Source: Erysipelotrichaceae bacterium (GTDB taxonomy: Bacteria; Bacillota_I; Bacilli_A; Erysipelotrichales; Erysipelotrichaceae). Taken from it: 64,000 bases of DNA. Positions 13,559 to 17,447 of this stretch are shown one piece after another (within the stretch, counting starts at the first letter, position 1; every line of letters starts with the position of its first letter). The translations under genes were made by a program, and so were the position numbers. The stretch covers positions 62,001 through 126,000 of the forward strand of contig JAFRQF010000023.1 of NCBI GenBank assembly GCA_017428765.1, given 5' to 3'. The notes below the pieces were generated by a model. The model had not been told where the DNA came from, did no database searches, and worked only from the letters and a program-made list of their open reading frames with translations.

Positions 13559-13595
13559 AAAGCCGGTCACTCTGTAAAAACAGGGCCGGCTTTTT
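13559..13595 (+). terminator. Intrinsic terminator after aldo/keto reductase
   Basis: AAAGCCGG pairs with CCGGCTTT, with an inner CTGT-AAAA-ACAG stem, followed by TTTTT. Confidence 0.9.
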
Positions 13596-13606
13596 CTATG
13601 GAAAAG

Positions 13607-13643
13607 ATCGTTTCTAAAACCGTATTCCGGTGAACGATTTTTT
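13607..13643 (+). terminator. Second hairpin with T run
   Basis: ATCGTT (13607-13612) pairs with AACGAT (13633-13638), enclosing ACCG-TATTC-CGGT, followed by TTTTT. It could be a back-up terminator that insulates the magnesium locus. Confidence 0.55.
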
Positions 13644-13646
13644 CAC

Positions 13647-13683
13647 TTGCTTTTTATTTTTTTCTGATAATATAAAGTTACAA
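13647..13683 (+). promoter_or_regulatory. Promoter of the mgtA leader
   Basis: TTGCTT (13647-13652) and TATAAA (13671-13676) are 18 bases apart; an overlapping TGATAATAT (13665-13673) is an alternative extended -10. Transcription would start near 13683, about 20 bases before the small leader frame. Confidence 0.5.
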
Positions 13684-13703
13684 GGAAAGGATTCATTTTT
13701 ATC

Positions 13704-13781
13704 ATGGAAGCTGCTGAAATCCCTTTATCGTGCATGTATGATCTGGCGGCTCTGGCTGAATCTTTTCTGCGTGTTCAGTAA
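13704..13781 (+). CDS. Putative 25-residue leader peptide of mgtA
   Basis: A short frame reading MEAAEIPLSCMYDLAALAES followed by FLRVQ and a TAA stop. AAGGAAAGGA precedes it, though the spacing (13 bases) is long. Codons 14-16 contain GGCGGCT (13745-13751), exactly complementary to AGCCGCC (13790-13796). That second segment can instead pair with GGAGGCT, which contains the ribosome site of the pump gene. A ribosome's position on this frame would therefore choose between the two structures, as in translated attenuator leaders. Coding status is inferred from this layout; the peptide itself has no relatives I recognise. Confidence 0.55.
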   Translation: MEAAEIPLSCMYDLAALAESFLRVQ

Positions 13782-13787
13782 GTAAGC

Positions 13788-13812
13788 AAAGCCGCCGTAC
13801 AGGAGGCTTTTT
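13788..13812 (+). promoter_or_regulatory. Hairpin masking the mgtA ribosome site
   Basis: AAAGCC (13788-13793) pairs with GGCTTT (13805-13810), with CC/GG inside (13795-13796 with 13802-13803), followed by TT. The 3' arm overlaps AGGAGG at 13801-13806, the ribosome site of the gene starting at 13815. It can act as a translation block and possibly as a terminator because the T run follows. Confidence 0.6.
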
Positions 13813-13814
13813 AT

Positions 13815-16430
13815 ATGGAAAAGAAAATCAAGAAAACAAACAGTAATGTCGAAGAAAAGCTGACATCTTTTTCTGTGCTTGCCCCGCAGGAAGTTTTCGA
13901 TCATTTCGGGATCAATAACGACGGGCTGAGCGGCGAACAGATAGAGAAAGGACAGGAACTTTACGGTCCCAACGTCATCAAAAGCGGCAAGAACGATTCG
14001 ATCTTCACCCGCTTGAAGGAAGCCATCATCAATCCTTTCAACATCGTCTTACTGGCGGTCGTGGCCGTGAGCTATTTTACCGATGTGGTCCTTTCGCCTG
14101 CGCCTTCCTATGCGACGATCATCATGCTGGTGATCATCGTGACGATCTCTTCGGCGACATCGTTCATCCAGTCGCAGAAATCCGATGAGGCTGCCAAAGC
14201 GCTGCAGCAGATGATCGTCACCAAAGTCAATGTGGTGCGTCAGGGCATGAAGAGACAGATCCCGATCGAAGACTGTGTGCCGGGAGACCTCGTCATACTC
14301 GGGTCCGGCGATCTGATACCGGGCGATGTGCGTTTCATCGAGACCAAGGACCTTTTCGTCGACCAGGCACAGCTGACCGGTGAATCCAATCCGGTGGAAA
14401 AATACGCGGACTTAAGGGACGGTGAGAACATCACCGATCTTTCCAATATCGGTTTCATGGGCTGTGATATCGTTTCCGGTGCGGCAAGGGCCATCATTCT
14501 GGCGACCGGCAATGACACCTATTTCGGTACGATGTCAAAGAGCCTGGAAGCGCAGAACGAGAAGTCGGTCTTCGATAAGAACATGGAGTCCATCACAAAG
14601 CTTCTGATCCGTTTCATGATGGTCATGGTACCGGTGATCTTCGCTGCCAACTATCTCACCAAGAACGACCTTCTGGATTCTCTGATCTTTGCGATCACGA
14701 TCGCCGTCGGTCTGATGCCGGAGATGCTTCCGGTCATGATCACTTCCTCGCTTGCCAAGGGTGCCATCTCGATGTCGAAGAAAAAGACCATCGTCAAAAA
14801 GCTCGGCTGCATTCAGACATTCGGTGAGATGGATATCTTATGTACCGATAAGACCGGAACACTGACCCAGGATGAAATCATCCTGGAGAAATATCTCGAT
14901 GCTTCGGGCAAGGAAGACATCAGGGTGCTTCGCCATGCCTTCTTGAACAGCTATTTCCAGACCGGACTCAAGAACCTGATGGACCGTGCCATCATCTCCC
15001 GAGGAGAGAAGGAAGGCCTGGATTATCTGAAGAAGTCCTATGTCAGGGAAGATGAGATCCCGTTCGATTTCGCAAGAAGAAAGATGTCGGTCGTGCTGCG
15101 TGACAGGAAACTCAAACGGCAGCTGATCACCAAGGGTGCGGTCGATGAGATCATCGCCAACTGTGCCTTCGTCGAGATCGAAGGGGAAGTGAAGCCGATG
15201 AACGAAGAACTTCGCAAGAACGCCTACCAGATCTCGGAAGACAACGGTGCGCAAGGCATCCGTGTCATCGCGGTCGCACAGAAAAACGAGATCCCGGATA
15301 TCGATGCCTTCACTTCCGAAGATGAAAAGGATATGGTCCTGTTGGGTTTCATCGGTTTCCTGGATCCTCCGAAAGAATCGGCGATCTCCGCGATCAAGGC
15401 GCTGAAAGACAATGGCATCCGAACGGTGGTCCTGACTGGTGACTCCAAGCAGGTCGCAGTCAATATCTGCGGCCGCATCGGCATCGACACGGAATACGCC
15501 TACTCCGGTCAGGATATCGAAATGATGAATGACGGTCAGCTCAAAAATGCCTGCAAGAAGGCGCAGATCTTTGCCAAGCTCAATCCTTTGCAGAAGAAGC
15601 GCATCGTCGAGACCTTCCAGGAACTCGGACATGTGGTGGGCTATATGGGTGACGGCATCAACGATGCACCGCCTTTGAAACAGGCTGATGTCGGCATCTC
15701 CGTGGATACGGCCGTCGATATCGCCAAGGAAGTGGCGGACATCATCCTTCTGGAAAAAGATCTCAATGTCCTGGATGAGGGCGTCAAAGAGGGCAGAAGG
15801 ACCTTTGCCAATATGAACAAGTATCTCAAGATGGCGATCTCCGGCAACTTCGGAAATATGATCTCCGTTCTGATCGCTTCGCTGGCTCTGCCGTTCCTGC
15901 CTCTCAAGCCGGTCCACATCCTGGTACAGAATATCCTCAATGACTTCGCCCAGTTCGGCATGCCTTACGACAATGTCGAAAAAGAGTATATCGAAAAGCC
16001 GATGGAATGGGATACGGATTCCTTGAAACAGTTCATGTTCTATTTCGGCCTGACTTCAACACTATTGGATGTCCTGTGCTTTGCGGTGCTGTGGTTCATC
16101 TTCGGCTATAAGACGCCGGAAAAGGCCGAATACTTCCAGTGCGGCTGGTTCATCTTCGGCGTCATCTCACAGACCCTGGTCATCCATACCATCCGTACGC
16201 ATAAGCTGCCGTTTGCCTCAGGCAAGGCAGGAAGGGAACTGATCATTTCCACACTGGCGGTCGTAGTGATCACGCTTGTCATCGGTATGAGCGATCTGGC
16301 GTACATCCTGGATATGAAGCCGCTTCCTTATACGTATCTGATCTATCTGGGGATCCTGATGGTCGTGTACATGCTGATCGCCCAGATCATGAAGAACATC
16401 TACATCAAACGATTCAAGAAGTGGATCTGA
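13815..16430 (+). CDS. mgtA: Magnesium-translocating P-type ATPase
   Basis: An 871-residue P3B-type pump that imports Mg2+ using ATP. Seen in order: actuator loop QAQLTGESNPVEK near 190, membrane motif VGLMPEMLPVMI near 300 (the MPE-P signature of MgtA/MgtB), phosphorylation site DKTGTLT near 350, nucleotide domain with KGAVDEI, hinge TGDSKQVAVNICGRIGI, GDGINDAPPLKQADVGISVD near 620, and the late MgtA motif QNILNDFAQFGMPYDNV. Ten membrane helices fit. AGGAGG precedes ATG 13815 at 8 bases and is itself part of a hairpin. It lies between a leader frame and an MgtE-like protein, so control by Mg2+ status is likely. Confidence 0.95.
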   Translation: MEKKIKKTNSNVEEKLTSFSVLAPQEVFDHFGINNDGLSGEQIEKGQELYGPNVIKSGKNDSIFTRLKEAIINPFNIVLLAVVAVSYFTDVVLSPAPSYATIIMLVIIVTISSATSFIQSQKSDEAAKALQQMIVTKVNVVRQGMKRQIPIEDCVPGDLVILGSGDLIPGDVRFIETKDLFVDQAQLTGESNPVEKYADLRDGENITDLSNIGFMGCDIVSGAARAIILATGNDTYFGTMSKSLEAQNEKSVFDKNMESITKLLIRFMMVMVPVIFAANYLTKNDLLDSLIFAITIAVGLMPEMLPVMITSSLAKGAISMSKKKTIVKKLGCIQTFGEMDILCTDKTGTLTQDEIILEKYLDASGKEDIRVLRHAFLNSYFQTGLKNLMDRAIISRGEKEGLDYLKKSYVREDEIPFDFARRKMSVVLRDRKLKRQLITKGAVDEIIANCAFVEIEGEVKPMNEELRKNAYQISEDNGAQGIRVIAVAQKNEIPDIDAFTSEDEKDMVLLGFIGFLDPPKESAISAIKALKDNGIRTVVLTGDSKQVAVNICGRIGIDTEYAYSGQDIEMMNDGQLKNACKKAQIFAKLNPLQKKRIVETFQELGHVVGYMGDGINDAPPLKQADVGISVDTAVDIAKEVADIILLEKDLNVLDEGVKEGRRTFANMNKYLKMAISGNFGNMISVLIASLALPFLPLKPVHILVQNILNDFAQFGMPYDNVEKEYIEKPMEWDTDSLKQFMFYFGLTSTLLDVLCFAVLWFIFGYKTPEKAEYFQCGWFIFGVISQTLVIHTIRTHKLPFASGKAGRELIISTLAVVVITLVIGMSDLAYILDMKPLPYTYLIYLGILMVVYMLIAQIMKNIYIKRFKKWI

Positions 16431-16445: not shown

Positions 16446-17447
16446 ATGGAAAACAAATATCTGGAAGAAAATATCGAAGAAAGAAATTACACACAGGAGA
16501 TCTTCGATCTCATACGCAAAACCAAGAATTCCAAACTGCTGGCGCAGACGCTGACCAACTATCACGACAACGATATCGCGGACGCTCTGACCTACCTTTC
16601 ACCGGATGAAAGAAAACGTCTGTACAAGGCCATCGGCATCGAAGCGACATCGAGGATCTTTGCGTATCTGGATGAAGATGTCGACAAGTATTTTGCCGAA
16701 CTGGAAAACGAATCGGCTGCCGATATCTTAGAAGAAATGGATGCCGACGATGCGATCGATATCCTGGAAGAACTCGATGAGAAGAAGGCCAACGAGATCA
16801 TCTCCCTCATCGAACCGGAGTCCAAGTCCGATATCCAGCTCTTACAGTCCTATGAAGACGATGAGTTCGGTTCTCTGATGACTACCAACTACATCACGCT
16901 GGAATATGGCATCGGCATCAAGAAGTCGATCGAACAGCTCATCGAAGAGGCGGAAGAAAACGACAATATCGAGACGTTATACATCGTGAAGGATGGCAAG
17001 TTCTATGGTGCCCTGACTTTGCGTGACCTTCTGATCACCAAGAAAGATGAGGATCTCGATGAGAAGATCATCCTGTCCTATCCGTTTGTTTACGATAAAG
17101 AGAAGATCACCGATGCGGCGATCGATACGCTGGCGGACTATTCCGAAGATTCCATTCCGGTACTGGATAAGGAAACAAATGAGATCTTAGGCGTCATCAC
17201 ATCCGCCGACATCGTCGAGCTGATCAATGAAGAAGAAGAGGAACTGCAGGAAGAAGAAAAGCAGAAGGTCTCAGAGGCGGAAAAGGGATTCGATACCCTG
17301 GAAGTCATCGCTGCCGTATTGCTTCTGCTGGTAGCGGTCAACAGACTTTTCGGCGTCTTACCTTCGACCAGCTATATCGAAGCACTGCTCATTCTTGCCG
17401 CCCTGGCACTGGCAGTCTGCAGCAGACTCAAACTGAGGAAACAATGA
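16446..17447 (+). CDS. MgtE-like Mg2+-sensing module without channel domain
   Basis: A 333-residue protein. Residues about 30-145 match the MgtE N-terminal superhelical domain (DNDIADALTYLSPDERKRLY, ILEEMDADDAIDILEEL), and about 150-275 hold a pair of CBS domains (GSLMTTNYITLEYG; IPVLDKETNEILGVITSADI). In MgtE these parts bind Mg2+ and gate a five-helix pore. Here the pore is absent: after an EEEEELQEEEKQK linker there are only two hydrophobic segments (about 287-307 and 312-328) and a basic end. About 450 residues would be expected for MgtE. It starts 15 bases after mgtA with AAAGGAG, so it is in the same operon. It may sense cytosolic Mg2+ and regulate the pump; this is inference. Confidence 0.85.
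   Translation: MENKYLEENIEERNYTQEIFDLIRKTKNSKLLAQTLTNYHDNDIADALTYLSPDERKRLYKAIGIEATSRIFAYLDEDVDKYFAELENESAADILEEMDADDAIDILEELDEKKANEIISLIEPESKSDIQLLQSYEDDEFGSLMTTNYITLEYGIGIKKSIEQLIEEAEENDNIETLYIVKDGKFYGALTLRDLLITKKDEDLDEKIILSYPFVYDKEKITDAAIDTLADYSEDSIPVLDKETNEILGVITSADIVELINEEEEELQEEEKQKVSEAEKGFDTLEVIAAVLLLLVAVNRLFGVLPSTSYIEALLILAALALAVCSRLKLRKQ

Follow-up and report, generated by a model that had tools for sequence, protein, structure and literature searches.

The locus raises the question of how a gene for a magnesium-translocating P-type ATPase, mgtA, might be controlled by a short reading frame and several complementary RNA segments that lie directly in front of it. The window, the stretch of 64,000 nucleotides that was analyzed (C18:62001-126000), belongs to the 2.4 Mb genome G000 of a gut/rumen Erysipelotrichaceae bacterium, whose nearest named relatives are metagenome assemblies designated 'Erysipelotrichaceae bacterium' and 'Solobacterium sp.'. 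On the plus strand, mgtA extends from position 13815, where its ATG is located, to 16430, and its product matches TIGR01524 with 1014.9 bits (cut-off 610.75). Upstream, an aldo-keto reductase gene is followed by a terminator-like hairpin and then by the short frame. The only site flagged by a terminator scan is 13570-13585, and a consensus scan revealed a weak promoter-like site (TTCACT-18-GATAAT, 13642 to 13671, plus strand).

Conservation of the leader reading frame

The leader ORF (13704 to 13781, plus strand; ATG at 13704, TAA at 13779-13781) comprises 25 codons and encodes the peptide MEAAEIPLSCMYDLAALAESFLRVQ. Its SD-like sequence AAGGAAAGGA (13682-13691) is part of the leader Shine-Dalgarno (SD) region AAGGAAAGGATTC (element 1, 13682 to 13694, plus strand), which can pair with positions 13758-13768. 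Relatives within the genus (36 genomes) were searched by the MgtA protein and by a covariance model. The leader start, GGCGGCT, AGCCGCC and the hairpin were recovered upstream of mgtA in 15 of the 36 genomes by the covariance model, with one copy each. In 14 of the 15 genomes the element is situated directly upstream of a full mgtA, while in G015 mgtA is split over contigs and the element lies on the contig with the gene start. Three further genomes of the genus possess a divergent mgtA (about 55% identical) preceded by other leaders (MEDPLSRKNMK..., MEDPLSYCNNT... and MEDPLSRSRHC...); a search of plasmids for the MEDPLS leader found none. Altogether, all 18 mgtA genes of the genus whose upstream DNA can be read have a leader; G026 is not among them, as its mgtA upstream region is cut by a contig end.

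The start codon, the SD and the first nine codons are kept in all 15 leaders that share the element. Their common start is M[ED]xx[ED]xPLS, with an acidic residue at codons 2 and 5 and P7-L8-S9 in 15/15 each. In the window, codons 2-9 (EAAEIPLS, 13707 to 13730, plus strand) are the stretch that is proposed to destabilize the ribosome by means of E2, E5 and P7. The codons CCT TTA TCG for Pro7-Leu8-Ser9 (13722-13730) are invariant in 15/15, synonymous sites included, which is not explained by peptide chemistry alone or by the known helices. Past codon 9 the frame is not conserved. Leader lengths vary from 15 to 25 codons and GGCGGCT is found in all three frames (phase counts 11:3:1). As codons 1-9 are conserved and the frame shifts afterwards, the constraint appears to act on the peptide up to codon 9 and on the RNA beyond. 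The emphasis of the initial annotation on a ribosome pausing over codons 14-18 is accordingly not supported, since this region is conserved as RNA only and the conserved peptide is that of codons 1-9. We infer that the leader is translated because frame, SD and peptide are all conserved.

Two alternative helices at the mgtA ribosome site

Within the leader ORF, GGCGGCT (element 2, 13745 to 13751) is perfectly complementary over 7 bp to AGCCGCC (13790-13796), which is part of element 3 (AAAGCCGCC, 13788 to 13796). Element 3 is the partner either of element 2 or of element 4 (AGGAGGCTTT, 13801 to 13810), which comprises the mgtA SD AGGAGG (13801-13806) and the 3' arm GGCTTT (13805-13810). The hairpin of AAAGCC (13788-13793) and GGCTTT therefore overlaps the SD. 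A further segment, element 1' (GAATCTTTTCT, 13758 to 13768), is complementary to the leader SD region according to folding and genus comparison; all these elements lie on the plus strand. The frame, both heptamers and the hairpin were found exactly at the coordinates claimed by the initial annotation.

Taken by itself, the window sequence is a weak case. The whole leader folded no better than shuffled sequences (z +0.41), and the short SD hairpin beat the shuffles (z -2.23; -10.9 kcal/mol). It is the comparison with relatives that settles the matter. Element 2 and the segment that extends from element 3 up to the start of mgtA were compared in 20 species, the 15 genus members and five from other genera of the family, which have other leaders (MSRLDDYHSRH..., MTHTDDYHSRN..., etc.). 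For the 2:3 helix GGCGGCT/AGCCGCC, 95.7% of the cells were paired, with compensatory changes at three of the seven positions (GGCGGTC/GACCGCC, AGCGG/CCGCT and others). No shuffle out of 500 was as good, a count that is not a probability because the rows are kin, and register-slid controls gave 30-68% pairing. The 3:4 SD hairpin was paired in 95% of the cells and is nearly invariant, which is to be expected since element 4 must also bind 16S rRNA. A third helix, between the leader SD and the pyrimidine-rich stretch after element 2, reached a mean z of -1.86 against shuffles in the 15 genus sequences. Read by eye, the MEDPLS group displays the same design in other letters (CACCACAG/CTGTGGTG, CCACAA/TTGTGG and ACCGCAG/CTGCGGT). 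In the remaining mgtA leaders and in mgtE leaders (see below), three similar relations exceeded shuffles on average, namely pairing of the leader SD with the 3' half of the leader, pairing of that half with the region before the gene, and the pre-gene hairpin.

The comparison thus showed a leader with a conserved start in whose RNA element 2 is predicted to pair with element 3 and, alternatively, element 3 with the SD-overlapping element 4. What had been proposed for this DNA was an attenuator with a translated leader and a pair of mutually exclusive helices at the mgtA ribosome site, with compensatory change in relatives as the means to judge it and unconserved frame or pairing as the finding that would speak against it. 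The compensatory changes are there, and the leader start as well as both helices are conserved.

A putative switch that depends on the order of synthesis

Equilibrium folding of the full-length genus leaders with ribosome masks did not predict a clear release of the mgtA SD. Its mean unpaired fraction was 0.38 without a ribosome, 0.45 with an early ribosome and 0.45 with a ribosome at the stop codon. The lack of a clean equilibrium switch can be ascribed to the 3:4 hairpin, which is stable by itself. It follows that the switch would have to be kinetic, and it is probably the order of synthesis that matters, element 3 emerging ahead of element 4. In place of the full-length RNAs, transcripts cut before the mgtA SD were therefore folded. 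The probability of the 2:3 helix was about 1.0 for a ribosome at codons 6-7. For one at the stop codon, the value was about 0 in six species, in which this ribosome covers element 2 or blocks the helix, and high in most others, the average being 0.63 unless steric loop-filling is assumed. In the remaining species the terminating ribosome sits in the loop of 36-43 nt between elements 2 and 3, where on steric grounds it should also block the helix. A ribosome holding codon 9 in its P site is expected to reach to about nt 40 with its leading edge, just ahead of the start of element 2 at leader nt 41-48.

On this comparative basis, we consider it probable (roughly two chances in three) that the region is a cis-acting, Mg2+-responsive leader-peptide attenuator of mgtA which acts mainly on translation initiation. 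At adequate Mg2+, ribosomes would pass codons 2-9, thereby covering element 2 and occupying the loop that separates it from element 3. In this state the 3:4 hairpin would form as it is transcribed, closing the mgtA SD and turning the gene off. When Mg2+ is low, ribosomes may drop off (or pause) before element 2 because of the early acidic/proline stretch. The 2:3 helix would then form first and preclude the 3:4 hairpin, leaving the SD free and mgtA on. Since complete translation of the leader is predicted to give the off state, loss of the leader start codon should result in constitutively high mgtA expression.

Some observations run against this reading. Compared to EPDP or ten glutamates, two isolated glutamates and one proline are a weak destabilizer. 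Acid at codon 2 occurs in 19.5% of ordinary genes, early acid is missing from some leaders (MSIPSQS..., MQSCCC...), and a leader is absent from many mgtA genes.

Leaders of mgtA and mgtE in other genomes

The survey covered mgtA upstream regions at family and class level and was extended by additional mgtA and mgtE loci of the phylum. For each region of the family and class collection, the best-SD short ORF was picked irrespective of its peptide. A strong-SD short ORF precedes mgtA in 52 of 94 regions of Bacilli (Erysipelotrichaceae and Mollicutes), against a mean of 12.5 and a maximum of 17 in shuffles, the window genus being counted once and the SD cut-off having been fixed after the data were first viewed. 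The mgtA genes of Clostridia, whose proteins are mostly 56-65% identical, showed no leader excess (8/56 versus 11.4 in shuffles); isolated look-alikes exist there, such as MCSQEQTGDFTGSDGSSDDPLG of L108. The leader is not a one-off, for comparable leaders stand in front of mgtA as well as mgtE throughout the family.

The leaders were compared with 231 ordinary genes with equally strong SDs. Acid and proline are juxtaposed within the first ten residues of 14/52 mgtA leaders versus 10/231 ordinary genes (p=5e-6), a net positive start was seen in 6/52 versus 126/231, and acid at codon 2 in 22/52 versus 45/231 (p=0.001). Examples are MQETTDAIDDDDWIY, MEDSPHCKY, MDEGPKPEQ, MSHPDDYHSK, MEGQSC...SLDDDPLG and MNPRSC...LDEDPC, and in Mollicutes MTNAITPEPEPGEL and MSPLSSFNDDVPI. 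A general enrichment of acid over ordinary proteins could not be maintained for residues 2-9, with D/E amounting to 15.4% in comparison with 13.3% in ordinary genes. What sets the leaders apart is the juxtaposition of acid and proline together with the scarcity of K/R.

DDDPLG or DDPLG leaders were observed before mgtA in one Erysipelotrichaceae genus (L208, L210, L214, L222) and in L108, an assembly of the Clostridia (Eubacteriaceae). In Mollicutes, in which TGA encodes Trp, the short leaders of mgtA (L135-L137, L147, L148, L152-L157, L331) are of the types MTNAITPEPEPGELI, MSPLSSFNDDVPI and M[SA]IPS...; those of the MSIPS type are devoid of early acid.

The gene for the second transporter, mgtE, had been intended as a negative control and was abandoned in this role because it carries leaders itself. 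A strong-SD short leader was found in 19 of 30 cases, 16 of which have acid at codon 2 (MDERPRS, MDKPGGS, MDEIPKS, MDDLPC ...). Juxtaposed acid and proline within the first ten residues occurred in 9/17 mgtE leaders versus 10/231 ordinary genes (p=2e-7), a net positive start in 0/17 versus 126/231. By contrast, background levels were found for Ca-ATPase-like genes (4/29, without a single case of acid at codon 2; Fisher p=2e-6) and for corA-like genes (4/25 with a leader), these being related transporters rather than certified CorA or SERCA, as most corA-like and nearly all Ca-ATPase-like matches fell below the curated cut-off. The strongest argument for Mg2+ as the signal is that the leaders sit on two unrelated Mg2+ transporters.

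In the genome of the window, mgtE lies on another contig (L335 / L348; G000:C3:2592-3926, minus strand) and is preceded by a GTG-started leader with a strong SD, MESQSIPLCSNNDPDLGYDFSLALLQ, which begins with MESQSIPLCSNNDPDLGYD... (MESQSIPLC...) and resembles the ME..EIPLSC start of the mgtA leader. The mgtE genes of a second type in the genus have a leader in 9/9 cases, eight of them with MD[VD][HP]LC..., and IPL/VPL/PLC recurs among the mgtE leaders of the genus. The MD[VD][HP]LC... leaders (L226, L228, L240, L338, L339, L341-L343) appear to follow the same alternative-helix design in different letters, exemplified by L226 with ACGATTTAGATGAG / CTCATTTAAATCGT against an SD hairpin CGTCTTT / AAAGACG.

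Alternative explanations

The same attenuator RNA could be driven by ribosome stalling instead of Mg2+-dependent drop-off, with the same output of a free element 2 and an active mgtA, be it through an arrest peptide at Pro-Leu-Ser or through slow decoding under a shortage of charged tRNA-Pro or tRNA-Leu(UUA). Such a signal would agree with the invariance of P7-L8-S9 and of their codons in all 15 leaders, with the early proline that recurs in many leaders and the IPL/VPL/PLC of the genus mgtE leaders, and with the position of a ribosome holding Ser9 in its P site, which would come to lie immediately before element 2. A response to charged tRNA-Pro has been described for mgtP of Salmonella (PMC8092293). 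A single proline is not known to cause ribosome stalling (PMC8092293). Other leader classes retain acid or acid-proline without PLS (DDYHSR, DDDPLG, DEDP, EPEP), and the restriction of the leaders to two Mg2+ transporter families, to the exclusion of Ca-ATPase-like and corA-like genes, fits Mg2+ better than an amino acid. Stalling in either variant is regarded as unlikely. Transcriptional control, in which the hairpin AAAGCCGCC...GGAGGCTTTTT would serve as an intrinsic terminator and the choice between terminator and antiterminator would fall to the leader ribosome, is less probable still. It is true that the 3' arm runs into five T in most genus members. However, the T-run is short everywhere and interrupted in L010 (GGCTTATTAT), it abuts the mgtA start codon, the mgtA SD is located inside the hairpin arm, the site was not flagged by the terminator scan, and the SD hairpin of the MEDPLS group lacks a U-run.

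A riboswitch, the RNA itself sensing Mg2+ and the short frame being incidental, might be suspected since an M-box precedes mgtA or mgtE in some members of the family. Neither the M-box nor any other Rfam family matched the mgtA leader locus, and the covariance model of the M-box (RF00380) had no match in the window. Among 196 genomes of the family, 23 contain an M-box, none of them belonging to the genus of the window. Leader ORFs were found even downstream of M-boxes, and a start codon, SD and nine codons kept in 15/15 genus leaders are difficult to reconcile with an incidental frame, which makes this explanation very improbable. A chance frame combined with chance complementarity, finally, was conceivable as long as a single sequence was considered, in which neither is statistically striking. 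It is refuted by conservation and compensatory change and by the excess of leaders over shuffles and over other genes, so that its likelihood is practically negligible.

In five cases (L117, L119, L121, L203, L205), M-box and leader ORF were observed in tandem upstream of mgtA. Elsewhere in the family a leader ORF often lies between an M-box and mgtA, which suggests two layers of Mg2+ control there.

Relation to known Mg2+-responsive leaders

In E. coli, early acidic (and proline) residues of the nascent chain destabilize the ribosome, an effect that is counteracted by high Mg2+ (PMC9718836). The EPDP motif of MgtL leads to ribosome drop-off and thereby controls mgtA (PMC11282234), and in Salmonella MgtQ, Asp2/Glu5 mediate destabilization, upon which a 2:3 stem frees the mgtB ribosome-binding site (PMC8092293). 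As in such attenuators, the Mg2+ transporter gene studied here is preceded by an SD-bearing ORF with early acid and proline and by mutually exclusive helices that form a predicted switch. The most detailed parallels concern mgtQ of the Salmonella mgtCBRU operon (PMC8092293), a short ORF whose second and fifth residues are acidic, as they are in the conserved start of the present leaders. In mgtQ, an early impediment to translation lets a 2:3 stem free the ribosome site of a gene for a Mg2+ transporter, control being translational, and the same is proposed for the present leader. On the other hand, mgtQ has 8 codons, lies between mgtC and mgtB, stems from Gammaproteobacteria and is unrelated in sequence, while the ORF described here has 15-25 codons including a conserved Pro-Leu-Ser and is part of the 5' leader of mgtA.

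The leader mgtL (PMC11282234, PMC11552253) precedes an mgtA of the same family and has early acidic/proline residues. Its complete translation is repressive, and it has mutually exclusive RNA structures and a stem that uses the leader's own SD, features presumably shared by the system presented here. MgtL differs in acting through Rho-dependent transcription termination and in its EPDP motif, which is absent from the peptide MEAAEIPLS..., whereas here a hairpin masks the mgtA SD and points to translational rather than mgtL-type Rho control. No shared leader sequence is evident, as the initial annotation had stated. That statement is literally true and misses the common logic of early acid and proline without early K/R. 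The uORF corL (PMC11552253) precedes corA, which in the same organism is a second, unrelated Mg2+ transporter gene, and is comparable in this respect to the mgtE leaders; it acts via Rho, and the corA-like genes of this family have no leader excess. Mg2+ control of mgtA/mgtE in Bacillota is exerted by the M-box (ykoK) riboswitch RF00380, whose sensing involves no leader peptide. It is absent from the leader locus and sometimes found upstream of a leader ORF in the family.

Ribosome drop-off as a means of Mg2+ sensing has so far been shown in E. coli and Salmonella, and in the open-access literature, to which the search was confined to the exclusion of subscription papers, no leader peptides of Gram-positive mgtA/mgtE were found. 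We lean slightly towards the view that ribosome-destabilizing leaders are a general, fast-evolving strategy of Gram-positive bacteria for sensing Mg2+, used for mgtA and mgtE in Erysipelotrichaceae and for mgtA in the wall-less Mollicutes, which replaces the M-box or works in tandem with it and is convergent with the enterobacterial mgtL/mgtQ/corL. Under this general reading the leader types would be MExxExPLS, MEDPLS, DDYHSR, DDDPLG, DEDP, EPEP and MDxxP. If it is true, the Mg2+ dependence of the ribosome is a sensor that has been reused in evolution with different transporters, different peptides and a different step, translation initiation. A candidate regulator would be at hand for mgtA/mgtE in many genomes without an M-box. 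Dozens of natural leader variants could moreover reveal which features of the nascent chain destabilize Gram-positive ribosomes, features that are hard to learn from the few enterobacterial examples.

Neighbouring features

Directly 3' of mgtA, an MgtE-like ORF (16446-17447) was noticed, in which the cytosolic part is present and the hydrophobic end is short. Its match to TIGR00400 (113 bits) is under the cut-off of 232.75, and it may act as a Mg2+ sensor or regulator that lacks the complete channel. The start of this ORF was also seen 3' of mgtA in relatives such as L008 and L010. Elsewhere in the window, a purine riboswitch (RF00167, 72.8 bits) is located at 1377-1478.
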